Shown: in pieces, positions 7,976 to 61,537 of the stretch
Layout of the letters: every line of letters begins with the position of its first letter
Numbering within the stretch: position 1 is the first letter of the stretch
Origin: Flavipsychrobacter sp.
Lineage (GTDB): Bacteria > Bacteroidota > Bacteroidia > Chitinophagales > Chitinophagaceae
Reading direction: 5' to 3'
Assembly (NCBI GenBank): GCA_016786615.1
Contig: JAEUVX010000002.1
Span: 186,001 to 250,000 of the forward strand
DNA: 64,000 nucleotides
Position numbers and translations under genes: made by a program
The notes under the pieces: model-generated
The model's input: only the letters and a program-made list of their open reading frames with translations
Database searches by the model: none
Told to the model about the DNA's origin: nothing

Positions 7976-9229
7976 TTATTTGCTTAGAGAAATGACAGAT
8001 CGGTAAGTTTGTTTTTCAGATACCAACTCCAGTATGTATTGCCCTTGTGCTACATCAGAAAGGTTAATAGTTCTATCTGTGCCTAGTAATCCTGTAGCAG
8101 CTTTTTGCCCTGTAATACTATATACGACGTAATTGTATGTTCCGTTTTCAACATCTATATGCAGTTTACCTGTAGACGGATTGGGATATATGTTCAACTT
8201 ATTTTGTGTTGTTGCGGTTTCGATATTTAGCTTCGCTACTACATCCATTTCATACCAATCGCGGAAGTAGGTTTGTGCACTACCATCCAATCTCCATCCG
8301 CATCCGGCGTATGCTTTATTACCAACTGCTGCCGCAACACCAAACAGTCGGCCTTGAGCTGGCCAACTGCCATGCAGATAACCCCATTTGTCTGTTGATG
8401 GGTTGTAATAAAAGAAAGTCGATTTATAGCCGGTATAACTAGTGCTTCCTAAACCTACAAAGCCTTTGTTGTCAATTACAAACGATACTGCACCATATCG
8501 AGCTGAGTCAGGAAAATCTGCTTTAGGTGTCCATGAATTGGCAGTCGCATTGTATTCATAGGTTTTAACAGTATTGGTAACACCTACTTGTCCACCCGAA
8601 ACATATCCTTTACTATTAAGAGCAAATGCTACAGCACTTTCTATAGTTGATTCCGGATAATCTGTTTTCTTGGTCCATTTATTAGCACCAGGGTCGTATT
8701 CCCACACTTGGTTAGTAGCATTTTTACCTGCACCAAAAGAACCTGCACCACCTACTACATAAGCTTTATTGTTCACAACAAAAACACATGACTCAGTTCT
8801 TCCTGAGTCTGGCAGACTTGCCTTCTGTACCCATGTACCCGTCGACGGGGTAAACTCCCAAAGATCTTTAAGATTTTTCTGGGCTCCCGAAGTACTTAAA
8901 AAATTCTCTGCGCCCAGACCCAAATACATTTTCCCATTAACTGTAAATGCTATTCCGGCAGAGCGATTGAGAGGTCCGATTGGTGTTGCAGTCAGATTTT
9001 TCCATGCTCCGGAAGCAGGGTCATATTCCTGCAGGTCGTTCAGCCATTGATTATTTGCATAGCCACCTGTCAAGTATATCTTACCTCCTGCAACAGTACT
9101 CATGCCGCCCCAACGCCCAAACTGAAACTGTAAATTATCAGCCTTCTTTACCCATTGTGCTGATATATTTGACATTGTGCAAATAACTGTGAATACCGGT
9201 AAGGCAAACTGCAATAAAATTCTTTTCAT
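7976..9229 (-). CDS. Kelch-repeat beta-propeller protein with T9SS sorting domain
   Basis: A 417-residue secreted protein starting at the ATG at 9229, which places the signal peptide MKRILLQFALPVFTVICTMSNISAQ at the N-terminus. It then carries about six kelch motifs, each with a Gly-Gly pair and spaced Tyr/Trp (KIYLTGGYAN, KAYVVGGAGSFG, KGYVSGGQVG, KGFVGLGSTS, KAYAGCGWR), forming a galactose-oxidase-like propeller without visible catalytic residues. The C-terminus has LNIYPNPSTGKLHID, a type A T9SS sorting domain, so the propeller should be displayed or released at the cell surface. It probably binds protein or glycan ligands, but none is known. It is monocistronic and divergent from the two-component genes. 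Confidence 0.9.
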   Translation of the reverse strand: MKRILLQFALPVFTVICTMSNISAQWVKKADNLQFQFGRWGGMSTVAGGKIYLTGGYANNQWLNDLQEYDPASGAWKNLTATPIGPLNRSAGIAFTVNGKMYLGLGAENFLSTSGAQKNLKDLWEFTPSTGTWVQKASLPDSGRTESCVFVVNNKAYVVGGAGSFGAGKNATNQVWEYDPGANKWTKKTDYPESTIESAVAFALNSKGYVSGGQVGVTNTVKTYEYNATANSWTPKADFPDSARYGAVSFVIDNKGFVGLGSTSYTGYKSTFFYYNPSTDKWGYLHGSWPAQGRLFGVAAAVGNKAYAGCGWRLDGSAQTYFRDWYEMDVVAKLNIETATTQNKLNIYPNPSTGKLHIDVENGTYNYVVYSITGQKAATGLLGTDRTINLSDVAQGQYILELVSEKQTYRSVISLSK

Positions 9230-9567
9230 ATCTAAAATGTTTTCCTTACACCTAGACAACAAAAGAGTAAAAACAAGTTTGCAAAATGTACATAAAGAAT
9301 AATAACAAAACTTAACGATTGCAAAATTGAAATAATAACCTATTATATTATAGCTATTAGTTAATGTATTAACGATAGAATAAAAAGACAATCAATATGC
9401 AACATGTTAATAGCTTGATCAGGTTCAGTATGCTCATCCTTTAAAAACTACCCTATCACCCAACTCTAATTCATGCTAAACCGTCATAAAAACTTAAAAA
9501 AGCTTAAATAACAAACAAATCCATGTCTAAACATTATAGCAAGTAAGCATATCAATATCTTTGATAG
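9230..9567. other. Intergenic region between divergent kelch and kinase genes
   Basis: A 338-base AT-rich stretch that must hold both promoters. The only recognisable element is TATCTTTG at 9556-9563, a -7-type box that ends 4 bases before the kinase start codon. I see no RNA gene. Confidence 0.45.
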
Positions 9568-11118
9568 ATGAATAAAGGCAAATCTAATCCGGTATATCTG
9601 TACTATACTATAGGCTTTGTTATTGCCACACTTATCGGTATACAGGTATATTGGATAAGAAACAGTATTAATGCCGAGAAGAAAGCAATAGAAAGAAGGT
9701 TAAAGGAAGATATAGACGATGTTGTGAAACGGGTGGAAGAAGATGCCTATTGTTTTACATACTATTCAAAGGCATATATTAAGAAAGGCGAAGGGATATT
9801 TATGCTAAAACAGAAATGGGCTGATGGCAGGTTTGTTCCTCTCAACGCTGGTGGCTATGTAGATACTATGTCTTTATATAATTTGTTTCGTACCCAAGCA
9901 GATACAGATGTATTTATACACGATAAATCTGTTTGGTTCGATACCTATCCGGCAACGGTAGATGTTACAATGAAATTCTCGTTTGTAGGTCTCAACCCTG
10001 ATATTAAAAGAACTGACAGCTTGTCTTACCAGATTGGGAATATAAGCGATAACAATTTCAGGCAGTTATTATCAAATAAGTTTAAGGTTGATGAAGCTAT
10101 CAATACTACATTATTAAACCACTTGATTGTAGAGGCATTAAAAAAGAATAAGTTGGATACTTTTTATTATGCAGGAATCAGGAAAGAAGGACAGGATGGT
10201 TATGAATATATAACCAAAGGAAGTAAAATAGCTGACTTGAAATCTACAAATATCAAGGCTTCGTTTTTGAATAATAAGTTTGATACTCCTTACGAATTGG
10301 ATGTGCATGTACCGGACTCTTTCATGTCTGTAGTACGTTCACTACTTATTATGATGATTTCCTCTTTGCTCATTATTATAATACTTATCGCCTCATATAT
10401 ATACTTTGTACGCACAATTTTTAATCAGAAAAAACTATCTGAAATAAAAAACAATTTCATAAACAATATTACACATGAGTTCAGAACTCCCATAACCAAT
10501 ATTAACCTTGCAGTTGAAAACTGGAAAGATGCCGGAAAGCCTGATAACTATTATCTGAATATAATTGAGGAAGAAAACAAACACATGGAGCGGAATGTAG
10601 AGCAGATACTGCAACTAGCTTCATTGGAAGAAAGAATAGGAAAAAAGCACTTCACAAAAGTAAACATACCGGACCTGATTAAAGAAGCTGCAGCTTCTTT
10701 TCAAATACAAATTGATAATACTAACGGCAATGTTAAACTTGATTTAAACGCCTCAAACCCCTATTTATATTGTAATGCACTGCATGTACGAAACATGTTG
10801 CAAAACCTCATAGACAATGCCATCAAATACAGAAAAGATAAACCAATAATAACTATTTCGACATTCAACACAGGCAGTCATTACGTATTGCAAGTAGAAG
10901 ATAATGGCATTGGTATGAGTGCCGAAACCCAAAAGTATATTTTCAACAGATTTTACAGAGGAGATACCGGAGACAGGCATGATGTAAAAGGCTTCGGGTT
11001 GGGAATGAGCTACGTTAAACACATAGTGGATGAGCATAACGGAGAAATAAACATAAAAAGCAAGCCGGGAAAGGGGACAAAAGTCACTATTTATTTACCT
11101 GAACTTAATAATCATTAA
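9568..11118 (+). CDS. Membrane sensor histidine kinase (RprX-like)
   Basis: A 516-residue sensor kinase. A first membrane helix lies at residues 8-28 and a second near 253-283 (VVRSLLIMMISSLLIIIIL), framing a periplasmic sensor of about 220 residues with no named fold. The HisKA motif ITHEFRTPITNI puts the phospho-acceptor at His303. The ATPase domain shows LIDNAIKYR (N box), VEDNGIGMS (G1), FNRFYRGD (F box) and GFGLGMSYVKHI (G2). The stop codon is one base before the response regulator start, so the two form an operon. The layout resembles Bacteroides RprX; the signal sensed is unknown. Confidence 0.93.
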   Translation: MNKGKSNPVYLYYTIGFVIATLIGIQVYWIRNSINAEKKAIERRLKEDIDDVVKRVEEDAYCFTYYSKAYIKKGEGIFMLKQKWADGRFVPLNAGGYVDTMSLYNLFRTQADTDVFIHDKSVWFDTYPATVDVTMKFSFVGLNPDIKRTDSLSYQIGNISDNNFRQLLSNKFKVDEAINTTLLNHLIVEALKKNKLDTFYYAGIRKEGQDGYEYITKGSKIADLKSTNIKASFLNNKFDTPYELDVHVPDSFMSVVRSLLIMMISSLLIIIILIASYIYFVRTIFNQKKLSEIKNNFINNITHEFRTPITNINLAVENWKDAGKPDNYYLNIIEEENKHMERNVEQILQLASLEERIGKKHFTKVNIPDLIKEAAASFQIQIDNTNGNVKLDLNASNPYLYCNALHVRNMLQNLIDNAIKYRKDKPIITISTFNTGSHYVLQVEDNGIGMSAETQKYIFNRFYRGDTGDRHDVKGFGLGMSYVKHIVDEHNGEINIKSKPGKGTKVTIYLPELNNH

Positions 11119-49376: not shown

Positions 49377-49600
49377 TTAACTATTACATAAAAAATCTGT
49401 CCATATAAAACATACTCTATTACACACAATTAAGAAGACAAATTACAGTAAATCAAATAGATACGATTTGAATATTATAATATTTATAATTTATGCCCAC
49501 CAAAAAGAAATTAAATAAAATACAAATTGTAATTTAATAGTATTCGAACAACACAACAATATACCCAATCAATTATCAACGCTACAAAAAATTGACTACA

Positions 49601-52600
49601 ATGAAACACCCGATTTTTTACATGATTCGTATAATGGTTCTTTTTTGTGCACTGTTATTTCATAACGAGGTAAAAGCACAATGGGCCTATGCAGTGCCGA
49701 TTACGATTACCAATACTGTAAACAGTGTGGTAAACAACTATCAGGTACCGATATACATTAACACATCTACACCGATAACAAACGGGCAAATGTTATCTAA
49801 TGGTAATGACATCAGGTTTGCCAGTACTTGCCTCGGAGGTACATTCTATGATTATTACATAGATTCAGGCTTCAACTCAACAAGAACTAAAATATGGGTG
49901 AAGATTGATAACCTTCAGCCATTGGCAAATAAAGTAATATACTTGCTGCATGGCAACCCGAGTGCTGCTGCAGCATCTACCCTTTCTACTTTTAACGGTC
50001 CGTACTCATCAACCAATCAGGTGAGTGTAACTGCTACAAATACTGTATCTAACTGTCAACGCGGATTCCGTTTTTCCCCAAACCACCTTATAATAGTTCC
50101 ACAGTTTGGTAAACAAACGCCTGATGCGACAACCAGATACGTTACGGTTTTCGACTTTTCAAGCACTGCATTAATACAACAAACACAAGTATCCGGAGCA
50201 TCAGGCGTGTATAGTTATGCTAACCTGCCATCGCCTATCTGGCTGCAAAAAAACACACAGTATCTGGTCCAGCTATACAATGGAACCGGGGACATGTATT
50301 ATTATGGTACATCATCACAGATAAACAACAATCTTACATACTATGATATGAGGTATTGCAACAGTTGTACCCAAAATACATTCCCAACATCTACATTAAC
50401 CAACTATCATTATGGGGTTCCCGATTTTATGTTTTATACCTGTGACACCAACAATATAGCATCAGCACCTACTTACGTTGTGGGTGCAGGCAGTGGCGCA
50501 GGCCCAACAATAACATTAGGACAAAACCCTACAGTTTGTGCAACAACAACTACTGCTCCATTACCTTATACAGCAGTAAACGGTGCCCCTACTACATACA
50601 GCATAGTATGGAGTGCCGCAGCTATTACAGCAGGTTTTGTAAACGTTACTTCCGCAGCATTCCCTGCTACCAGCCCGATATCAATCGCAGTGCCGGGCGC
50701 AGCAGCTGTTAATTCATATTCAGGCACACTTACACTTTCAAATGCATGTGGCACCAGCGTAGGTTATCCATTTACTGTAACGATTACCAATACAATACCT
50801 ATTACCACACAACCAGCAAATACAAGTATATGCTCTGGTGGTAATGCAAGCTTTACAGTAGCAGGCACAGGGGCAACAGGATATCAATGGCAGGTAAACA
50901 CCGGTAGCGGTTTCACTAACGTTACCAATACAGGTGTGTATAGCGGTGCTACAACATCGAACCTGAGCATTACTGCTGCACCATTAACAATGAATGGCTA
51001 TACATACAGGTGTGTATTAAGTTCTACAGGTTGTGGTTCTGTAACATCTGCCAGCGGCATACTGACTGTTGGTTTATCTAATTCAACTATCACAATCACC
51101 AACACAAGCTCTGTAAGCTGTACGGGTGTAAGTATTACTTTCAACTCAAGCGTAACAAATGCAGGTACGGCACCAATCTATCAGTGGCAGGTAAATGGCC
51201 TGAATGTAGGCACCAACAGTCCAACATATACTTCAACCACACTGGTTAACGGTGATGTGGTGCGTTGCCTGCTGACACCAACAGGAGGCGGCTGTACAGG
51301 CAGTGTTACAAGTAATTCAATTACAATGAGCCTGATACCAAGTGTTGCACCGACAATCACTGTCAGTACTACCAATACTACAGTTTGTGCAGGTACATCA
51401 GTAATATTTGTTGCTAACTATACTAATGGCGGTACTACACCATCATTCCAATGGAGGAAAAATGGTGTACCTGTTGGGTCCGGCACTAACTCTTACACAG
51501 ATAATGGTGTAACAACGGGTACGATAATATCTTGTGTAATGACAAGTAATGCACCTTGCGCCATACCCACAACAGTTACAAGTAACAATGTAACAATGAC
51601 TGTGAACCCGATACTTATACCATCAGTAAGCATCAGCACATCGAGCACTACAAGATGTGATGGACAAAGCACTGTGTTTACTGCAACTCCTGTAAACGGT
51701 GGCACAAGCCCGATGTATCAATGGTTTGTGAACAATAACCCAGTAGGAACAAACAGTACATCTTATACAACAACTACATTGCAAAACGGTGATATTGTTA
51801 CATGTAATATGAACTCGTCAGTAGCTTGTCCGAGCAGCACAACTGTAACCAGTAATGCACTGACAATGACAATCAACCCAACAGTGATACCAAGTATCAG
51901 CATCAGTTCTGATTTCGGCACACAAGCTTGTGTTGGTGTACCGGTAACGTTTACTGCAACAACAACAAATGGTGGCCCTGCCCCGCTGTTCCAGTGGAGG
52001 CAAAACAGTGTATCGGTTGGCACTAACAGTCCGACATACACCACAACACTAACAGCAGGAAGCACAATCAACTGTATATTAACGAGTACTTCAACTTGTG
52101 CAATACCTACAACTGTAACAAGTAATACTCTTACAATGACAGTAAATCCGGTTGGTAAAGCAACCGTAGATGTAGTCCCAACACCTGACAGCATTATGTG
52201 TACACCGGGTAATGGTATCTTATTTTATACCGTATATACCAATGGTGGCAGTAATAACAAATATCAATGGTTGCTGAATGGTATAGATATACCGGGAGCA
52301 ACACAACCAACATTCTTCAGCAATACGCTTGCAAACAACGACCTTGTATCTTGCAGATTCAGCAGTAGCAATGTGTGTGTATTCCCTGAACTGAGCCAGC
52401 CTGTAACTATCAAACGCTACCCTGTGGTGGTACCGGGTGTTACTATTAAAGTAGAAGACCTTGGTGGTAATACGATACGCTTTACTGCAAACATTGTAAA
52501 CGGAGGCCCTAACCCTATGTATCACTGGAGGAAAAACGGCAATTATATACCTAATGAAACTAATAGCGTATATACTGTAACCGGCCTCAGTAATACAGAC

Positions 52601-52966
52601 AGGATAAGCGTAGAAATAAAGAGCGATGCCATTTGTGCCTCTCCAAAATCTGTGATAAGTAATGATGCCGTATTTACAACAAACGTACAAATAGTAGCGG
52701 CAGGCGAAAACCATATCGGGTTATATCCTAACCCGGTAATGGATGGACAGTTATTCCTGACAACAGACAAAACTCTAAAAGGAAATACAGAAATCAGGAT
52801 AACAGACAGATTAGGCAGCCTTGTTTCTGTTCAAAAAAATATAATACTGAACGACAGCAAACCTGTAACGATAGAAGTAGGCAACTTGGCCGCAGGTATG
52901 TATATACTGCAAGTAATTAATGACGCTGAAAATGTGAATACCAACATCAGGTTCAACAAGCAGTAA
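49601..52966 (+). CDS. Giant Ig-repeat surface protein with DUF2341 head and T9SS sorting domain
   Basis: A 1121-residue secreted protein started at the ATG at 49601 (MKHPIFYMI); an in-frame TTG nine bases upstream is rejected. After the signal peptide comes a DUF2341-like head (YAVPITITNTVNSV, QVPIYINTS, KIWVKIDNLQP, YLLHGNPSA), then two Ig-like units and six modules of about 90 residues that match those of the previous protein in the same order. It ends with GLYPNPVMDGQ and NIRFNKQ, a T9SS sorting domain. It is a partial duplicate of its neighbour with a different head. Confidence 0.9.
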   Translation: MKHPIFYMIRIMVLFCALLFHNEVKAQWAYAVPITITNTVNSVVNNYQVPIYINTSTPITNGQMLSNGNDIRFASTCLGGTFYDYYIDSGFNSTRTKIWVKIDNLQPLANKVIYLLHGNPSAAAASTLSTFNGPYSSTNQVSVTATNTVSNCQRGFRFSPNHLIIVPQFGKQTPDATTRYVTVFDFSSTALIQQTQVSGASGVYSYANLPSPIWLQKNTQYLVQLYNGTGDMYYYGTSSQINNNLTYYDMRYCNSCTQNTFPTSTLTNYHYGVPDFMFYTCDTNNIASAPTYVVGAGSGAGPTITLGQNPTVCATTTTAPLPYTAVNGAPTTYSIVWSAAAITAGFVNVTSAAFPATSPISIAVPGAAAVNSYSGTLTLSNACGTSVGYPFTVTITNTIPITTQPANTSICSGGNASFTVAGTGATGYQWQVNTGSGFTNVTNTGVYSGATTSNLSITAAPLTMNGYTYRCVLSSTGCGSVTSASGILTVGLSNSTITITNTSSVSCTGVSITFNSSVTNAGTAPIYQWQVNGLNVGTNSPTYTSTTLVNGDVVRCLLTPTGGGCTGSVTSNSITMSLIPSVAPTITVSTTNTTVCAGTSVIFVANYTNGGTTPSFQWRKNGVPVGSGTNSYTDNGVTTGTIISCVMTSNAPCAIPTTVTSNNVTMTVNPILIPSVSISTSSTTRCDGQSTVFTATPVNGGTSPMYQWFVNNNPVGTNSTSYTTTTLQNGDIVTCNMNSSVACPSSTTVTSNALTMTINPTVIPSISISSDFGTQACVGVPVTFTATTTNGGPAPLFQWRQNSVSVGTNSPTYTTTLTAGSTINCILTSTSTCAIPTTVTSNTLTMTVNPVGKATVDVVPTPDSIMCTPGNGILFYTVYTNGGSNNKYQWLLNGIDIPGATQPTFFSNTLANNDLVSCRFSSSNVCVFPELSQPVTIKRYPVVVPGVTIKVEDLGGNTIRFTANIVNGGPNPMYHWRKNGNYIPNETNSVYTVTGLSNTDRISVEIKSDAICASPKSVISNDAVFTTNVQIVAAGENHIGLYPNPVMDGQLFLTTDKTLKGNTEIRITDRLGSLVSVQKNIILNDSKPVTIEVGNLAAGMYILQVINDAENVNTNIRFNKQ

Positions 52967-53327
52967 TAACCAATTATTAAGTACATAAAAAAAGGCTGAG
53001 CGACTGCTCAGCCTTTTTTGTGTTATAGAAAACAAGCTATTCAAAGCACTTAGTTTTTCCAGTTTTCTCAAATAATATATTTTTATTTTTAAAATTAAAA
53101 ATACTACCTTTAACATTCACTTAACCCTTATCAGGGAATTCTAATGAATAACAGCTTGGCGATGAATTATCAGCACTTGTTTCTTTCCATAAGTCGCTAA
53201 CCCATTCCGATAGCAAACTGCTGTCATCTTACATGTAGAATTAAGAGAAAATTACTGAGGCTGACTTATGCTCTGGCATGAGCTCCGGCACAATGCATCA
53301 ATGTGTAATAACAAAAAAGTTTTTGCT
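52967..53327. other. Intergenic region upstream of Cys-rich operon
   Basis: A 361-base stretch. It holds the terminator of the preceding gene (52988-53019); the rest must contain the promoter of the two-gene Cys-rich unit, but I cannot point to a clear TAnnTTTG element. No RNA gene is visible. Confidence 0.45.
52988..53019 (+). terminator. Terminator of second Ig-repeat gene
   Basis: GGCTGAGC and GCTCAGCC pair around a GACT loop, flanked by an A-run and followed by six T. It lies 21 bases after the stop. Confidence 0.92.
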
Positions 53328-55622
53328 ATGAACAGGAAAAATTTGTTTTTGTTGTTGTTGCTATCGGCATCTTATGTGTGCCAAGCACAAAACAAGCCGG
53401 GTATTGTCTCTAATCTGCCAACAGGTTTGAAAACAAATCTGCCATTTGAGATATCTCCTAAAGGAGGAATGGCAATGCCATCTGCAGGCTTAAAGAATGC
53501 TTCGTTTCTCAACAATGGATGGTTGGGAGGATTAGACATATCACTCCCGGTAATTCGACCAAAGAAAAATCCGAAATCATTCAACTTTAACCTTGGCTTT
53601 GATGCAGGAATCGATTATAGTTCTTTTACATCAAACGGAGGGCTGGACTTTGTAAAAAACAACTACCAGCTTTCTAACGGAAGCCTCAATCCGTATTTCG
53701 ATAATTCATCGAACCAGGCAAAAGCACTACAAATATCTATAGGCCCACGGATATCGCTCAGCTATAAAAAAATACACCTAACCCCCAGCCTTCAATTAGG
53801 TTACTTCAATTTTCGACAGAACGGTTATTCAATATTAGATACAGTAAGCAATGCTGCAGGGGTTCAGTCAACGATTCCATTATTATTTGCCAAAGAAACA
53901 AATACGAATGGCTTGCTGATAAGACCTAAGATAAATATCGGTTTTGATGTTACGCGTTATATGAGGATATGGGTAGGCTCATCTATGAGTATGGGCCCTG
54001 ACATTAACAACGATTACCACATCTGGCAACCTGATAAAAAAACGCTCAATAACAGTATAAGTACAGACGAGCTGATTGGCGGGCGAGCTGTTTTACAAAG
54101 AACCAATACTCCGTTTCAGTTATTCAATATTGAACTTGGCGTAAAAATGGGATTGGGGATAACACCGCTTTCCAAACCGGGTATAAAATTTCCGCAAAGC
54201 ATGCCTCCCTTGTCTAAGTCGGCATATAAAGACAATGTAATAACAGCCGCAGATAAGATAAAAAAGAATAGTACAACTACTGCTACGCAAAAAACAAAAC
54301 AAGCAAACGCCAACGGAGCCTTGTCGTCTGATAATGCAATGGCACGCTACAATGCATCTGCACCTGAAATTGTTTTCCCTGCCAACAACACTAAAACATC
54401 ATTGATTAACAATGACCTTCGAATCAATTTTAAAGGTAGCAATACGGATAATGTACAATATGAATTGAATATATGGACGGAGAAAAACGGCAGGAAGAAA
54501 AACGTGTTGCAACAAACTTATCCTTACGATTGGGATGGCAGTGTAAAAGACTTTGGCAATATTATCGACAAAAAAGGCAAAGACATTTTTCATGCGCAGA
54601 TAACTGCAATACCCGGCAGTAAGGATGATAAAATAAAACCTAAAAACAATAATACCGATTACCGAAATGTGCAGCAGGAAGGGACACCTGTATTTACTAA
54701 CCGTGGCATCAGTGCGCCCGTAGTGTTCAGTATTTCTGCAGGTTGTTTCCCGAACCTTACATTAGACCTCGATAGTACAAAATGCGTAGATAGCGGTAAA
54801 ACAAAAGTATGGGGACACGTAACATTGGCAAGTGTTACAGGTATTACAGTTACAAGCATTACAATTACCGATTTCAGAGAAAACAACTTCAGCGGGCCGG
54901 CAGTACCCGTTAGTAATCTGTTGCCAGGTACAAGCCTGCCACCTACAAGCAATAGCCCCTTCAGCTTCAATGTAGACAAAGACATGTGCGGAAAACTTTT
55001 GTTCATGCGCATACTTATAACATATACATGTGTACTTACTAACGAATCTGTAACGGTGCCATGTGCAGATACTATTACAATGCCTTGTTGCAAGTGTAAC
55101 TACTGTGCAGACAGTATGAAAATAAGTTCACAAAGTTCGGGCATCAGCTATAACAACAGCAATAACCTAGCACAGATAAACCAGTCATTCTCTGTTACAC
55201 CTAACAACATCACGCATGTTACTGCTGAAATCGTATATATGTCTGACAGTGTAAATGACCCGGCATGTAACATCTGCGATGCAAAACCGGAATCAGTATA
55301 TCACTTCACCGGCACTAATACAATGTCATGGAACGGGAACACACCATTGAACGCATCAGCTGCAAACAGTGCAACGAGTTTTCCATCGAAAATCATAAGC
55401 TGGCAATGCAATAATAATGGTAATGTAAGTTTCATTCTGAATGCGGGGCTACCTGATATACCGAAACTGAAATGTTGTGAAACATATACGCGTATTTGTA
55501 TCCGCTACAGTTTTACGGATGCCAACTGTAAGAAATGTGACATCCTTGTTTGTTATTCGCTAAGCTATAGTACAGGCAGTGGTACAACTGAAGAAAACGG
55601 AACAGGTAACACCAAAAACTGA
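53328..55622 (+). CDS. Barrel-like protein with Ig-like middle and Cys-rich tail
   Basis: A 764-residue protein. The ATG at 53328 gives the signal peptide MNRKNLFLLLLLSASYVCQAQ. Residues 25-290 alternate in a barrel-like way (SFNFNLGFDAGIDYS, LQISIGPRISLSYKKI, PSLQLGYFNFRQNG, KINIGFDVTRYMRIWVG, LFNIELGVKMGLG). A linker and an Ig-like part (FPANNTKTSLINNDLRINF) follow. Residues about 475-755 are rich in Cys: CCKCNYCADSM, DPACNICDAK, KCCETYTRICIRY and ANCKKCDILVCYS. This tail resembles residues 1500-1675 of the next protein. No T9SS domain is visible. It is 5 bases from the next gene. Confidence 0.75.
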   Translation: MNRKNLFLLLLLSASYVCQAQNKPGIVSNLPTGLKTNLPFEISPKGGMAMPSAGLKNASFLNNGWLGGLDISLPVIRPKKNPKSFNFNLGFDAGIDYSSFTSNGGLDFVKNNYQLSNGSLNPYFDNSSNQAKALQISIGPRISLSYKKIHLTPSLQLGYFNFRQNGYSILDTVSNAAGVQSTIPLLFAKETNTNGLLIRPKINIGFDVTRYMRIWVGSSMSMGPDINNDYHIWQPDKKTLNNSISTDELIGGRAVLQRTNTPFQLFNIELGVKMGLGITPLSKPGIKFPQSMPPLSKSAYKDNVITAADKIKKNSTTTATQKTKQANANGALSSDNAMARYNASAPEIVFPANNTKTSLINNDLRINFKGSNTDNVQYELNIWTEKNGRKKNVLQQTYPYDWDGSVKDFGNIIDKKGKDIFHAQITAIPGSKDDKIKPKNNNTDYRNVQQEGTPVFTNRGISAPVVFSISAGCFPNLTLDLDSTKCVDSGKTKVWGHVTLASVTGITVTSITITDFRENNFSGPAVPVSNLLPGTSLPPTSNSPFSFNVDKDMCGKLLFMRILITYTCVLTNESVTVPCADTITMPCCKCNYCADSMKISSQSSGISYNNSNNLAQINQSFSVTPNNITHVTAEIVYMSDSVNDPACNICDAKPESVYHFTGTNTMSWNGNTPLNASAANSATSFPSKIISWQCNNNGNVSFILNAGLPDIPKLKCCETYTRICIRYSFTDANCKKCDILVCYSLSYSTGSGTTEENGTGNTKN

Positions 55623-55627
55623 AAATT

Positions 55628-58600
55628 ATGAAACACTTCATTGTAATTATATCATTCGTTCTTGGCAGTATCCTGAACATACCTGTTGTAAACGCACAAC
55701 AGCATCCTGAATGTATTAACTGCTGTACCCAGATAGGGGGTGGCAGTACCCCACCTTGCTGGGTAGTTTGTACAGACAAACCATACCAGATAAGGTTATC
55801 GCAAACATCACCATCCGGCTGTAGTTTTCCGGCACAACCGGGCTATACGGCTACTCTGATAAGTACATCCAGCGGCATCTGTACTTACCAGGTTGTATTC
55901 AATACACCGGGTACATACAATATATCGGGCACATGCTTCCAGGTATTGCCACATCCGCAAGCTATTATTGCAAACCCCAATCCGATATTGGCGTGTAAAG
56001 GATCGCCTGTAAGCTTTATAAACGGATGGCTGTTTGCTACCGACTATAGCTGGGACTTCGGAGACCCGGCATCCGGTGGTGCTAATACAAGTAATTCTCC
56101 TGGCAATCCCGTTACTCATACATACAATACACCCGGCACTTACACTGTTACACTTGTTGCCACAACGAGTATTAACAGGAACGGAACAGATATACCTTGC
56201 TGCAGTGACACAACGCATGTTACCGTAATTGTAGATTCCAGCGAAGGACCGACAGTAGGTTGCCTCAGCCCTGTTTGCGATAGTTCAACAGGCAATTATT
56301 GTATTCTCAGTAACCCGTCCGGATGTACTTATACATGGAGTACCAATGCAGGCAATACCGTAACACCATCGGGCAACTGCGCTACATTCAACTGGAACAC
56401 AATGCCTTTAGGCAGCATAATACTAACACCATCCGGTACAAACTGTTGTCCTTATCCGTCAACATTCTATATACCCATCATGCCGTCCGGCAATTTCAAC
56501 ATTAGTGGTAATGATACCGTTTGTGGCGGAGCAATAGAATTTTATACCGCCCCTGCAATATGGGGAGCAACATACAACTGGTCGATAAGCCCAACTGTAA
56601 ACTTCAATATACCAAACCCTGCAAACCCAAGCCAGATAGCTGTTTTATGGCCATCTTCGGGTACTTATACCATTACCTGCAATATGGGTAATGACGTACT
56701 GGATTGTGATGGTGTAGGAACAATCACTGTTAATGTGTTACCAAAATTTCAGATAACAGGCCCTGCACAAGCCTGCGTGAATCAACCCGTAACATTTACA
56801 TCTACAGCCACAGGCACTACTAACTGGATAGTATCTCCTGCTGCAAGCTGCAGTACATCCGGCAGTAATTTTAATTGTTCATTTGCCACAGCTGGCACAT
56901 ATACTATTACAGCATCCAATTCCGCATATTGCAATAGCCCTGTTGCAACTATTATCATATTGCCACAACCGGTGGCGCCTATACTCAGCGGACCACTACA
57001 AGTATTACCCGGCTGCACTTATACATACACAGCTACATCACCTAACCCTGTAACATGGAGCGTAACACCGGGCAGTGCTACTGTAGTAAATGCCGGCAAC
57101 TCCATACAGGTAACATGGCCATCATCTTTTACCGGCGGAACAGTATCTGCGGTTGCTGTACAGGATAGTTGTCAATCACCGGCAGCAGTGCTAAACATCG
57201 GGGTGATACCTGCACCAACTATTACAGGTGGTGGCAATCTTTGCAGCAACGGGCAAAACAGTTTCAGTTTATCATCATTGCCGGCAAATACTACTGTACA
57301 ATGGACTGTAAGCCCTGCAACAGCAGGCAGTGTGACGGCGGGACAAGGCACCCAAAATGCTACAGTAACATGGTACACAGTTGCCACATCTACCCCGATA
57401 ACAGTTACAGCAACCATCACAAATGGCTGTACCAATACAACTTTTGCGACACTCAATGCTACAGGTACGTTATTCCCTGAACCTGCGGCATCAGTATCGG
57501 GCAACCTGTTGTTTTGTATTGGCGGCTCTACGACCATTACCGCGACACCAGGTTTTACCAGCTACAGTTGGGATGGAGGGACACCTGTTGGCAGTAATAC
57601 ACAATCATTCAGTACTGCCGGTGTTCACAACGTAGAGGTAACTAATTCATTTGGTTGCAAAAAGAAGATATTCTTTACATTGGTTGCCGTACCATCACCC
57701 GTTGTTACCTTGTCAACAACTACTGTACCACAATGTATCAACTCTGTATTGCAACCATTCACATTAGCAACAACTACAGGCTCGGGATATACTGTTACCA
57801 ACTATACATTTAAAGACCCTAACGGTATAACAATATGCAGTGGCTTATCTCCAACATGTACAGTTGGCTCACCAATACCAGGCACTTATACAGTTACGGT
57901 ATCATTCAGCTATACTTATAACGGAAGCCCTGTATCATGCACAAAAACTGCTTCGATACTGGTTGGCTGCCCTTCAGGTGGCGGTTGTGGCAGTGGCTGT
58001 ACTCAAAACCCGAACAACTGTAATTATACAATCACATACAGCTACCTGTCTTGTAACAGCATACAGCTTACAATCAACCCATTCCCGCAATGCGGCAGCT
58101 TCAACCCGCCAGATACCATAATGTTGAATTGGGGAGATGGAAATATTACCAACATATACAGTTCGTACAATACAACTACCCAAACCTATGTATTGACACA
58201 TACCTACAACCTACCAGCATATTACCATTTGTTCCTGAGTTGCAATCTTGGTGCTATTGATATACCAGTTGGCGGTGCTGTAGATTTCAATCTGGTACGA
58301 GATAGTTGCGCTGTTGACCTGATTGACTTTTCATCTGCCATATCAGGTGCTACATTTACTTTTACTTCTGTAAACTGGGGAGACGGTAACACCAATACCA
58401 ATACAAGCCATGTATATGCCTTAAGCGGCACATACCTTGTTACGCTCACATACATGCTGAATGGCAACCCTTGTACTGATACCCAGAGTATAACTGTGAT
58501 AAAACCCAACTATAACATAGTTGCTAATCCCAACCCTGCATGTGCAGGCTCGCCTGTCAACTTCTCTGTAGCATATATCGCTCCATTTAACAGCTCACTT

Positions 58601-61474
58601 GTACAATCTTATGTCTGGAATTTCGGAGATTTATCTGCCAACAGCCACGATTCTGCCACACAACATAGTTACACCTTACCCGGCACCTATACAGTGACGC
58701 TTACTATTACAGACATATATGGCTGTACTGTTGTAAAAACCATGTCACTTACTGTAAATGCTCCTGTAGCATATACATTATCGAGCAACAGCCCGCAATG
58801 CGATTCTGTTACGCTTACCATCAATACACCATCCGGCTTTGGCAACCCGACGGCAGTAACATGGATACCTGCAAGTGTAAATAACCTTGGCGGATTTCAA
58901 TATTCCGCAGACAGTTCGGGTCTATACACAGCAACTGTAACGGGTCCTAATGGTTGCAGCATTGTATTATTGAATAATATTACTGTGTACCCCAAACCAA
59001 ACATTACAATCAATGCACCGGACTCTGCATGTACCGGACAAACCTATACCATAACATCCAATGCATCACCAACCCTGTTCACATTCAACTGGCAGATAAA
59101 TGGTATCAGTACAGTATATACCCAAAGCGGCACCGGCACAAATATCTCTTTTGCCCCGACAACTGCAGGCACGTATGAAATAGTGCTCACAGCTACATTA
59201 ACATCAGCACCGTTCTGCACTGTTACTGTAAAAGATACCATAACCGTTTTCAGCTCCCCATCAGTAACAGTTACGCCAAGTACATTCAGTATTGTCTGTT
59301 CGGGTACACCTATTACGCTTACATCAAGTGTTACCGGGAATTCACCTTTCACTTATAGCTGGAGCAGCGGCCAGACAACCAGCGCTATAACGGTTTATAT
59401 AAACGGCAACTATACTGTAACAGTTACCGATGTGAATAAATGTAAAGGGAAAGCAACAGGCACAGCCAACATAGCACCGCTACCCGACTTCACAGTATTT
59501 GCACGAGGTTGTGATACTTTATGTTTTGCCGCAGGCGACACAATACATGGCCCTGCAGGATATAGTAATTATCAATTCCTGATAGATAACACAACCGTAC
59601 AAAACGGAGCTACCAGTTATCTTGCCGACCCATGCGGCCAAACTATTATGGCAGACGGAGCACCACACATCATCAAACTGATTATTACTACATCGCAGGG
59701 ATGTATCGACAGTTCGGAATTTGAATTGAAATGTAAAGAGTGTAACGCTTGTGTTTGTGATACCGGTGTGCATTTCACCACTTCGCCATATATCAGCTAT
59801 CATAAAAATGAAGAGAAATATACTGACAGCACCAAATGCAACAGCAATACAGTAAACAAACTGGAGTGTAAAAAACCTTATGAATTCGCCATTGGATTCA
59901 CATATCCACCAAGCTACGATAGTTGTAATGTAAAAGACAGTGTGGTGATAGCAGATGCAGGTGGAAGCATGGTTACATCTCAATCCAGCGTTTCGCCCAA
60001 CAGCCCGCTGATGTTTTCATTCAGCCAACCAGGCACCTATTGCATCATCCATTATCTGACTGTTAATGGCAAAGTATGCGACTCGTGCAGGATATGTGTT
60101 GATATCAGCTGTCCTACAGAACCACCTTGTAACAACTGTATAAAAATCCTCAACTCATCGTTCTTTGAATTGACGGATTCTGTTAAGAATAACAACGGCT
60201 TCCAGGTACAGAATGGCAGCATCGACTTCTCAACAATTGCAGACGCACAAGAAGTGAAAATATCCATTGCTGATATTGAATACTCATGGAGTGATTCAAA
60301 ATGTCAGGATTGTCAATCTCGCACTATTGGCAGGGGATGCTTGTTTGCACAAAACAATACACAAACCATTGGCGGACTTACTTTAGATCCTAATTCTGCA
60401 CAGTTCCTTCCAATCGGCTCTAAGCCGGATGAATGCCCGCAGGAGGTATTATGGATAATGGGCACTGCTGCTACGGCAGGTACTTATAATGTACCGGTAC
60501 AATTCAGCCTGCCGCAAGGACTAATACCATCGTGCTGCAGCCTGAAGGTTACCAAACTGTGCCTACGCCTGAGTATCAAAGACATCAATTGCCAGGTTTG
60601 CGATACAATTATCTGCTTCACCAGCAGGCCTGCATGTTGTAAGGGTACGAAATGGATCAGCAAAAACCTGTCATGGTCTGCAACATCAACAGGTGGCGGT
60701 TCTTCTACCACAGCTGCTGCAGCTACTAACAATATATCTGTAGTATGTGGCAAAACATACACTATACAAGATGGCATTACCTACACCTTCAATGCAACGT
60801 ATCAATGCAGTACAGGATGTGCTCAAAAAACAAAAGTGAAAATAGTACAGCCTAACGGAAGTATCATCAACCAGAACATGCCGTATAATAAGAGCTTTAA
60901 TCAACCGGGTACATACACCGTTACTTATTACGCTTATTGCGGCAATGTGATTTGTGATAGCTGCACTTTCAAAATGTACATGGATAAAGATTGCTGCAAG
61001 GGCTCTAAATGGAATAGCAAGAAGATAACTTACAAAAAAGCGAACGGCCAGACCACAACAAAAAATCTGATAAATGGTGATGTTATATCCAGTGCGGCAA
61101 CCACTACGGTAGCCCTGAGTTATCAATGTGCCGAGGGTTGCGCTCCTACGTATAAATGGAAAAGGTGGCGCAATGGTGCACCACACGATAGCGCGAGTAT
61201 AGCATCTACAGCTTCAATTGTAAATATCAATTTCACTCCGCCAACCAGTAGTTGCGATAGTATTGTTATTACCGTATTCTGTGATGGTAAACTATGTGAA
61301 ACACTCAGCTTCAGATTATGCTGTATTAACTGTACCGGCATACCTAATACAGGCAGCATATATTATATGAAGCAAGAATATTATTATCGTACAGAGGATA
61401 CTCCTAATCCTATCATCCGAAAGAAAACAGATAATATATCTGCCTACAGCATTTATAGAAAACACAAACCTTAG
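55628..61474 (+). CDS. Giant PKD-domain protein with C-terminal Cys-rich ladder
   Basis: A 1948-residue protein with the signal peptide MKHFIVIISFVLGSILNIPVVNAQ. Residues 100-1350 are Ig/PKD-like; four clear PKD cores read WDFGDPASGG, WGDGNITNIY, WGDGNTNTNTSHVY and WNFGDLSANSHD, each followed by a GTYxVTL strand. From residue 1369 the composition changes: by my count 42 Cys in about 555 residues, arranged as CxxC, CC and DSC units (CKECNACVC, CDSCRICVDISC, CQDCQ, CCKGTKW, CDSCTF, CCKGSKW, CCINC). No T9SS sorting domain is seen at the C-terminus. The Cys-rich module at 1500-1675 is shared with the preceding protein. It is probably surface-exposed. Confidence 0.8.
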   Translation: MKHFIVIISFVLGSILNIPVVNAQQHPECINCCTQIGGGSTPPCWVVCTDKPYQIRLSQTSPSGCSFPAQPGYTATLISTSSGICTYQVVFNTPGTYNISGTCFQVLPHPQAIIANPNPILACKGSPVSFINGWLFATDYSWDFGDPASGGANTSNSPGNPVTHTYNTPGTYTVTLVATTSINRNGTDIPCCSDTTHVTVIVDSSEGPTVGCLSPVCDSSTGNYCILSNPSGCTYTWSTNAGNTVTPSGNCATFNWNTMPLGSIILTPSGTNCCPYPSTFYIPIMPSGNFNISGNDTVCGGAIEFYTAPAIWGATYNWSISPTVNFNIPNPANPSQIAVLWPSSGTYTITCNMGNDVLDCDGVGTITVNVLPKFQITGPAQACVNQPVTFTSTATGTTNWIVSPAASCSTSGSNFNCSFATAGTYTITASNSAYCNSPVATIIILPQPVAPILSGPLQVLPGCTYTYTATSPNPVTWSVTPGSATVVNAGNSIQVTWPSSFTGGTVSAVAVQDSCQSPAAVLNIGVIPAPTITGGGNLCSNGQNSFSLSSLPANTTVQWTVSPATAGSVTAGQGTQNATVTWYTVATSTPITVTATITNGCTNTTFATLNATGTLFPEPAASVSGNLLFCIGGSTTITATPGFTSYSWDGGTPVGSNTQSFSTAGVHNVEVTNSFGCKKKIFFTLVAVPSPVVTLSTTTVPQCINSVLQPFTLATTTGSGYTVTNYTFKDPNGITICSGLSPTCTVGSPIPGTYTVTVSFSYTYNGSPVSCTKTASILVGCPSGGGCGSGCTQNPNNCNYTITYSYLSCNSIQLTINPFPQCGSFNPPDTIMLNWGDGNITNIYSSYNTTTQTYVLTHTYNLPAYYHLFLSCNLGAIDIPVGGAVDFNLVRDSCAVDLIDFSSAISGATFTFTSVNWGDGNTNTNTSHVYALSGTYLVTLTYMLNGNPCTDTQSITVIKPNYNIVANPNPACAGSPVNFSVAYIAPFNSSLVQSYVWNFGDLSANSHDSATQHSYTLPGTYTVTLTITDIYGCTVVKTMSLTVNAPVAYTLSSNSPQCDSVTLTINTPSGFGNPTAVTWIPASVNNLGGFQYSADSSGLYTATVTGPNGCSIVLLNNITVYPKPNITINAPDSACTGQTYTITSNASPTLFTFNWQINGISTVYTQSGTGTNISFAPTTAGTYEIVLTATLTSAPFCTVTVKDTITVFSSPSVTVTPSTFSIVCSGTPITLTSSVTGNSPFTYSWSSGQTTSAITVYINGNYTVTVTDVNKCKGKATGTANIAPLPDFTVFARGCDTLCFAAGDTIHGPAGYSNYQFLIDNTTVQNGATSYLADPCGQTIMADGAPHIIKLIITTSQGCIDSSEFELKCKECNACVCDTGVHFTTSPYISYHKNEEKYTDSTKCNSNTVNKLECKKPYEFAIGFTYPPSYDSCNVKDSVVIADAGGSMVTSQSSVSPNSPLMFSFSQPGTYCIIHYLTVNGKVCDSCRICVDISCPTEPPCNNCIKILNSSFFELTDSVKNNNGFQVQNGSIDFSTIADAQEVKISIADIEYSWSDSKCQDCQSRTIGRGCLFAQNNTQTIGGLTLDPNSAQFLPIGSKPDECPQEVLWIMGTAATAGTYNVPVQFSLPQGLIPSCCSLKVTKLCLRLSIKDINCQVCDTIICFTSRPACCKGTKWISKNLSWSATSTGGGSSTTAAAATNNISVVCGKTYTIQDGITYTFNATYQCSTGCAQKTKVKIVQPNGSIINQNMPYNKSFNQPGTYTVTYYAYCGNVICDSCTFKMYMDKDCCKGSKWNSKKITYKKANGQTTTKNLINGDVISSAATTTVALSYQCAEGCAPTYKWKRWRNGAPHDSASIASTASIVNINFTPPTSSCDSIVITVFCDGKLCETLSFRLCCINCTGIPNTGSIYYMKQEYYYRTEDTPNPIIRKKTDNISAYSIYRKHKP

Positions 61475-61510
61475 CAGACTGTTTAATTAGCATACATTGG
61501 TTCAAAACAG

Positions 61511-61537
61511 AAGGCCGCTTTTCAGCGGCTTTCTTTT
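61511..61537 (+). terminator. Terminator of giant PKD gene
   Basis: GGCCGCT and AGCGGCT(T) pair around a TTTC loop with one G/T step, followed by TTTCTTTT. It lies about 37 bases after the stop. Confidence 0.8.

Follow-up and report, generated by a model that had tools for sequence, protein, structure and literature searches.

A conserved two-gene unit of Bacteroidota in which a probable barrel protein and a giant PKD protein share a Cys-rich module

INTRODUCTION

The classical arrangement of T9SS adhesins is a gene for a protein with a type B CTD located beside a PorP/SprF gene. SprB-SprF and PG1035-PorP combine a large or giant surface protein with an outer-membrane barrel, and both components are often encoded side by side. 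PMC9143113 and PMC12618676 describe type B CTD adhesins as being held by PorP-like barrels, and PMC12635249 reports that the carrier SprF of F. johnsoniae uses periplasmic cysteines, with a disulfide between SprF and GldK. The TANFOR proteins (TIGR02542) appear in passages of PMC7073777 as polymorphic toxins and hypothesised T9SS substrates, the genes of which co-occur with T9SS cargo; the words “barrel” and “porin” are absent from the main text of that paper.

A gene pair from Flavipsychrobacter sp. is compared here with these systems. It resides in a window of 64,000 nucleotides, which is the whole stretch of DNA analyzed, and the assembly is a 2.96-Mb MAG, 91% complete, labelled G000 among the compared genomes (G, genome; L, locus). 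No description of the pair or of the cassette related to it was found among the papers listed from the open-licence PMC literature.

RESULTS

The gene pair and its products

An earlier note on this DNA had placed the two genes 5 bases apart, and the ORF coordinates gave the same distance from P0001 to P0002. The features of the locus are as follows.

52994..53019, + strand: hairpin plus T run 5' of the unit, downstream of the T9SS cargo gene at 49592-52966 (by eye; absent from the terminator scan list)
53328..55622, + strand: P0001 (A-type gene), 764 aa, with a signal peptide (by eye), probable outer-membrane barrel, beta-rich middle, and C-terminal Cys module
53391..54197, + strand: probable outer-membrane beta-barrel, P0001 about residues 22-290 (barrel-only relatives, HMM, hydrophobic alternation)
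54360..55067, + strand: beta-rich middle, perhaps Fn3-like and then Ig-like, P0001 about residues 345-580 (AlphaFold2 strands, partly of low confidence)
55074..55562, + strand: Cys module, A-type, P0001 residues 583-745 (profiles; AlphaFold2 block with a pLDDT of about 75-93)
55628..61474, + strand: P0002 (B-type gene), 1948 aa, with a signal peptide (by eye), PKD/Ig repeats, and a Cys-rich C-terminal third
60107..60622, + strand: Cys module, B-type, P0002 residues 1494-1665 (profiles, HMM searches)
60623..61351, + strand: further Cys-containing modules, P0002 about residues 1666-1908 (BLAST similarity to parts of several other B proteins and of the T9SS-tailed G025 protein)
61509..61534, + strand: terminator-like hairpin 3' of P0002, closing the two-gene unit (weak alone, because the scan gave 6 sites versus 7.0 expected by chance)

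The start of P0001 was set at ATG 53328, its ORF already opens at ATG 53268, and its stop codon ends at 55622. A T9SS cargo gene (49592-52966; TIGR04183, 1.2e-6) precedes P0001. Downstream of P0002, the terminator-like hairpin is followed by a tRNA-Gln on the opposite strand and then by another ORF, which we take to encode a penicillin-binding protein. Loss of a T9SS tail from P0002 was ruled out because 34 bases separate the stop codon from the hairpin at 61509. A recent transfer of the pair found no support, with GC contents of 40% for P0001 and 44% for P0002 compared to 41% for the window.

The earlier note had called the N-terminus of P0001 barrel-like. Evidence for this is indirect and comprises a weak similarity to OMP_b-brl_2 (E 0.55, below the Pfam cut-off), a mean hydrophobic alternation above that of all 500 column shuffles, which indicates beta-type alternation and not a barrel as such, and a 329-aa relative (L049) with little beyond the barrel and a C-terminal Trp. 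Against it, the barrel region gave no Pfam match above the cut-off. An HMM of 11 P0001-type barrels, P0001 included, scored P0001 at 3.5e-102. Judged from these sequence features, the N-terminus is probably an outer-membrane beta-barrel. In a standard even-stranded barrel, a C-terminal domain ends up in the periplasm; if the barrel of P0001 is an ordinary one, its module should therefore be periplasmic, and P0002 would have to reach through or stay inside. Other P0001-type barrels (L046-L055) occur without the module, several of them with CarboxypepD_reg/SdrD_B-like repeats and an “SGLKDTLKTNV”-like tail.

AlphaFold2 modelled residues 340-764 of P0001 with a mean pLDDT of 72.4 and a pTM of 0.49; the module consisted nearly entirely of strands, and the region before it was poor. 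A relation of the middle region to Fn3 is weak, with an hhalign probability of 10. Foldseek with the C-terminal half of P0001 returned many Ig-like adhesin and pilin domains at a TM of about 0.2, too weak to name a fold.

P0002 is a PKD-domain protein (PKD_4, E 1.9e-24, 86 bits, cut-off 27), and giant PKD proteins of Bacteroidota are usually located at the surface. About 280 residues follow its Cys module. G025, which belongs to the same order, encodes a relative of P0002 that is 2238 aa long and ends in a T9SS type A tail (L006, 7910-14626, - strand); the paired Cys module was not detected in this protein, nor were A, C, or D matches beside its gene. A scan of viral contigs with residues 1487-1948 of P0002 yielded no relative.

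The shared Cys module

Residues 587-755 of P0001 and 1500-1675 of P0002 had been aligned by eye in the earlier note, and profiles bore out this homology for residues 583-745 and 1494-1665. BLASTP of P0001 against P0002 gave 41% identity over 46 columns (E 1e-5), and hhalign of an A-type profile (19 rows) against a B-type profile (16 rows) gave a probability of 99.6 with an E of 9.1e-24 over 167 columns. A B-type HMM built without P0002 matched residues 1494-1665 of P0002 (E 7.7e-31) and also P0001 (E 3.4e-19). An A-type HMM built without P0001 matched P0001 at E 6.2e-50; P0002 was not among the window ORF matches of this small HMM at E<=10 and was found at E 2.8e-11 by the larger A2 profile, which contains P0001 and not P0002. 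As a control for the A-type HMM, 70 long proteins were block-shuffled 20 times and reversed once, and none of the resulting sequences matched at E<=10.

Seven Cys positions, two of which form a CC pair, are common to both modules: Cys 62, 131, 132, 139, 149, 152, and 157 in the P0001 segment correspond to 70, 147, 148, 156, 166, 169, and 174 in the P0002 segment, and each of them is a Cys in 20 to 23 of the 23 A rows and in 18 to 20 of the 20 B rows. A clean ancient split into A and B modules was unsupported, because the best tree split misplaced 6 of 43 rows. Sequence searches of Pfam, NCBIfam, and PDB with the module gave no credible match, so no known sorting or adhesion domain was recognized in the shared segment in these databases. 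In the searches with this module and with the cassette protein C (see below), hits to PF09519 (in 1 of 19 members) and to PF14529 (in 1 of 23) were taken as chance. Haem binding was also discarded since the CxxC motifs of both modules, inspected by eye, are without a following His.

Distribution of the module and the pair

Neither the search of 14 other genomes of the same genus nor a scan of genome contigs with P0001 revealed a relative of this protein. P0001-like matches were present in at least 29 of 394 Chitinophagaceae genomes when up to two candidates were scored in each, many over the barrel only, with near full-length relatives in G142 (33%) and G212 (31%). With up to seven candidates scored per genome, the A2 profile found the module in at least 16 of the 394 genomes, with two matches in 15 of them and one in G216, where the B-profile uncovered a second copy. 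The two copies of the module genomes in this family sit in adjacent genes, A and then B. The earlier note had also considered that the pair might not co-occur in other genomes; it is kept in dozens of other Bacteroidota.

In a sample of the phylum, 16 of 316 genomes possessed the module according to the A2 profile, three of them already counted in the family set. Two of the 13 genomes outside the family (G525, G660) were dropped due to short matches with stops, and 11 were examined. At nine of these 11 loci, a protein of 1073-1603 aa (one of them cut by a contig end) contained a single internal module, which means that a partner gene is not always required. G708 harbors an A-B pair. In G547, two proteins start D-like and contain two modules apiece; they may be A-B fusions, a label that is an interpretation because the A-type HMM outscores the B-type HMM on both modules. 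All eight outside module proteins scanned for tails, with G653 left out because of its contig end, have an internal module and a terminal TIGR04183-like tail, six above and two below the cut-off. The module can therefore be extracellular, and its coexistence with a type A signal (6/8 above the cut-off) shows that it does not serve as one itself.

A four-gene cassette with a predicted barrel

In 7 of the 16 module genomes of the family, and in 30 loci found through gene C, the pair is part of a cassette A-B-C-D, with C proteins of about 570-590 aa and D proteins of mostly 280-350 aa. The scan with C yielded 42 loci, mainly from Chitinophagaceae and Ferruginibacter MAGs and also from Limnovirga, Flaviaesturariibacter, Flavobacterium, and Lacihabitans; L074 and L076 represent one MAG. 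When nine incomplete loci were left out, the module was present in both A and B in 30 of the 33 complete loci, in neither in 3 (L078, L079, L082), and in one alone in none. The A-B gap was 5-30 bp in 27 of the 30 module-bearing loci. Selection by C makes these loci uninformative on how often pairs occur without C. At L078, L079, and L082, and also at L121 and L122, A and B are replaced by a protein of 1628-2113 aa that begins TANFOR-like and by one of roughly 700 aa that looks Fn3-like by eye, neither of them with the module.

C was modelled with a pLDDT of 83.6 and a pTM of 0.71 as 25 long antiparallel strands and one short strand, so that it is predicted to be an outer-membrane barrel of 25-26 strands. 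The best Foldseek match was MtrB (6r2q_B, TM 0.51), and the ushers PapC and FimD appeared at a TM of 0.37-0.43 among many other barrels; Pfam, NCBIfam, and PDB sequences gave no credible match to C. C was not found in the window genome, one MAG that is 91% complete.

The N-terminal part of A varies with the presence of C. In all seven family module genomes with a full-length C, A has a match to the D-HMM, which covers a TANFOR-like plus Fn3 half. The nine family module genomes without a full C gave no such match in eight complete A N-termini, the truncated A of G299 being dropped. The P0001-type barrel is fused to A in G000, G142, and G212. The A proteins of G043, G090, G141, G211, and G260, also without C, were dropped as candidates for P0001-like barrels, their N-termini having no detectable relation to the barrel of P0001 (hhalign probability 0.7). 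That A supplies a barrel of its own where C is missing is therefore shown only for G000, G142, and G212. Fusions of D to a barrel occur in G708 and G547 (C-HMM, E 1.7e-9 and 4.8e-9, filters off), and at L065 the P0001-type barrel is encoded on its own, by a gene located between B and C of the cassette. The 503-aa product of that gene (8224-9735) contains many “YVGHVTLLKRNG”-like repeats ahead of the barrel. In G142 and G212, a remote C homologue is located beside a TANFOR gene elsewhere in the genome.

The 30 C loci and 9 family genomes without C comprise 39 module loci, with the 11 of the 42 C loci that overlap family genomes counted once. Just upstream in 15 of these 39 loci lies a gene for a response regulator, presumably of the LytTR type, for a large putative sensor kinase, or for each of the two, as judged with HMMs of six members, four of which come from the 39-locus set; an ORF intervenes at L057 and L087. 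No such gene lies just upstream of the window pair. A RecX-like gene is located directly 3' of D in 21 of the 42 C loci (L056 and 20 others).

Comparison with T9SS signals and PorP/SprF

The earlier note had stated that neither protein possesses a YPNP-type T9SS tail, and the absence holds for both tail types: TIGR04183, the sorting domain of type A cargo, had no match in the last 300 aa of P0002 or the last 264 aa of P0001, and TIGR04131, that of type B cargo, had none in the complete proteins or their C-termini. Two other window proteins served as positive controls and reached 28 bits on TIGR04183 with a cut-off of 23; two of the six T9SS cargo proteins counted in the window by the earlier note were confirmed above this cut-off. 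TIGR03519 did not match P0001, so that its sequence does not place it among the PorP/SprF shuttles.

The mismatch with type B cargo and PorP/SprF is not a blind spot of the models because G000 itself contains 11 type B CTDs above the cut-off (of 12 TIGR04131 matches, none at this locus) and four PorP/SprF genes above the TIGR03519 cut-off, none of them P0001. Three type B CTD genes of G000 are located directly beside PorP/SprF genes (C3:262067-263297, C7:196205-197469, C1:2104-3365).

Relation to TANFOR proteins

TIGR02542 had no match in P0001 and none in G000, so that P0001 is not assigned to the TANFOR class. The TANFOR domain of A and D relatives was visible at the profile level only: hhalign of the N-domains, signal peptides included, against TANFOR proteins gave a probability of 99.4 (E 2.8e-21) for D and 97.9 (E 4.3e-13) for A, and the D-HMM matched TANFOR proteins. 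With up to nine candidates scored per genome for TIGR02542 and up to three for C, TIGR02542 matches occurred in at least 38 of the 394 family genomes, C-family matches in at least 60, and both in at least 31. The Fisher p of 8e-23 for this co-occurrence is overstated because all TANFOR matches in the family sample are below the curated cut-off of TIGR02542 and related genomes are not independent. Of at least 45 TANFOR matches, 28 were located directly 3' of a C-family gene at a distance of 0.18-1.65 kb (for example, L132 8224-17026 and L133 2626-11332), 6 were within 15 kb on either side of such a gene, and 11 had no C match on the same contig and strand. The C-family barrel directly 5' of these 28 genes is a candidate for the partner of the TANFOR toxins in the outer membrane.

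DISCUSSION

The earlier note had offered an outer-membrane partner with its surface exoprotein as one reading of the pair. It is the best supported one, owing to the conserved pair, the module in both genes, and the fusions, although the support covers only part of it; the C/D cassette, the TANFOR link, and the two-component regulators go beyond what had been claimed. With about as much belief as doubt, P0001 and P0002 are interpreted as a co-expressed outer-membrane anchor and a giant surface exoprotein that are coupled via paired Cys modules. P0001 would sit in the outer membrane by its N-terminal barrel and present its C-terminal module. The module of P0002 may dock on that of P0001 or become crosslinked to it by disulfides, which would keep the PKD repeats of P0002 at the cell envelope, where they most likely form a surface fibre with an adhesive or structural role. 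The window pair would be a compact version, with anchoring in many relatives split among A with its TANFOR-like N-domain, the barrel C, and D. That P0001 anchors P0002 is suggested by the shared module, the conserved adjacency and concordant presence, the barrel model of C, the absent T9SS tails, and the fusions, which elsewhere join two modules in one protein, a barrel to A, and D to a barrel. Gene fusions are standard evidence for association. In many environmental Bacteroidota, a conserved, unnamed Cys module would in this way connect a giant surface-type protein with one of the barrel type.

A domain common to two neighbouring genes could nevertheless mean that they are plain paralogues, and the module could have spread among adjacent surface genes by simple duplication or shuffling without any physical coupling of the products. 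Single-copy carriers outside the family and the unclean A/B tree split (6/43 rows misplaced) agree with such an origin, but complete C loci with 30 cases of both, 3 of neither, and none discordant, the two-module fusions of G547, and the occurrence of two copies in each module genome of the family do not, making this the least probable of the readings considered. Hardly more probable is a function of the module as a new class of T9SS sorting domain, with P0002 and perhaps P0001 being cargo of a dedicated barrel as SprB is of SprF. The module is terminal in A proteins and many B proteins, the P0002 relative of G025 has a type A tail in place of the module, and TANFOR genes and T9SS cargo co-occur according to a passage in PMC7073777. 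On the other hand, 8 of 8 outside proteins have the module in their interior and end in a TIGR04183-like tail (6 above the cut-off), P0002 continues for about 280 residues past the module, and the probable barrel of P0001 would be odd for T9SS cargo.

The position of the modules relative to the membrane leads to another reading, in which both are periplasmic and the two proteins make up a scaffold of the envelope beneath the outer membrane instead of a surface fibre. An even-stranded barrel would leave the C-terminal domain in the periplasm, and neither protein has a known surface-export signal; the usual surface location of giant PKD proteins in this phylum, the module relatives in T9SS-tailed proteins, and the T9SS tail of a P0002 relative nevertheless make a periplasmic scaffold quite unlikely. 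Somewhat less unlikely, the cassette may be a general outer-membrane platform for TANFOR-type proteins, with the module pair as one payload or adaptor arrangement and the window pair as a reduced offshoot. This agrees with the 28 of at least 45 TANFOR matches 0.18-1.65 kb directly 3' of a C-family barrel gene, with the D-HMM matches to TANFOR proteins, and with the N-domain similarity (probability 99.4 for D, 97.9 for A). It has to be set against a window genome with neither C nor a TANFOR match, the lack of a toxin domain in P0001 and P0002 in Pfam and NCBIfam, TANFOR matches that are all below the family cut-off, and the 11 of at least 45 without C on the same contig and strand.

The anchor-and-exoprotein reading can tentatively be extended, with an extension that is doubtful but slightly more probable than these alternatives: the window pair may be the two-gene miniature of an undescribed outer-membrane presentation platform of Bacteroidota, in which a TANFOR-like adaptor and a 25-26-strand barrel (C/D) display or export paired Cys-module fibres in some lineages and TANFOR toxins in others, the barrel being fused to the adaptor in the window. 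If true, this would provide the TANFOR class, with an export route so far hypothesised, with its outer-membrane partner.

Compared to the known systems, the window pair resembles SprB-SprF and PG1035-PorP as a giant surface-type protein encoded beside a barrel-type protein but differs in having neither a type B CTD nor a PorP/SprF match and in sharing one homologous Cys module between both partners; it is best read as a pair that may work like SprF/SprB yet falls under neither definition. T9SS type A cargo differs by its tails, which the P0002 relative of G025 and the module carriers outside the family possess and P0001 and P0002 do not. Large outer-membrane barrels such as MtrB and the ushers PapC and FimD are similar to C in predicted fold and strand number, albeit without a credible sequence match, and C is absent from the window genome. 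TANFOR proteins (TIGR02542) are like A and D of the cassette in a TANFOR-like N-domain followed by Fn3-like repeats and in their occurrence in Bacteroidota with T9SS neighbours, whereas P0001 has a probable barrel instead, and A ends in the Cys module and not in a toxin.
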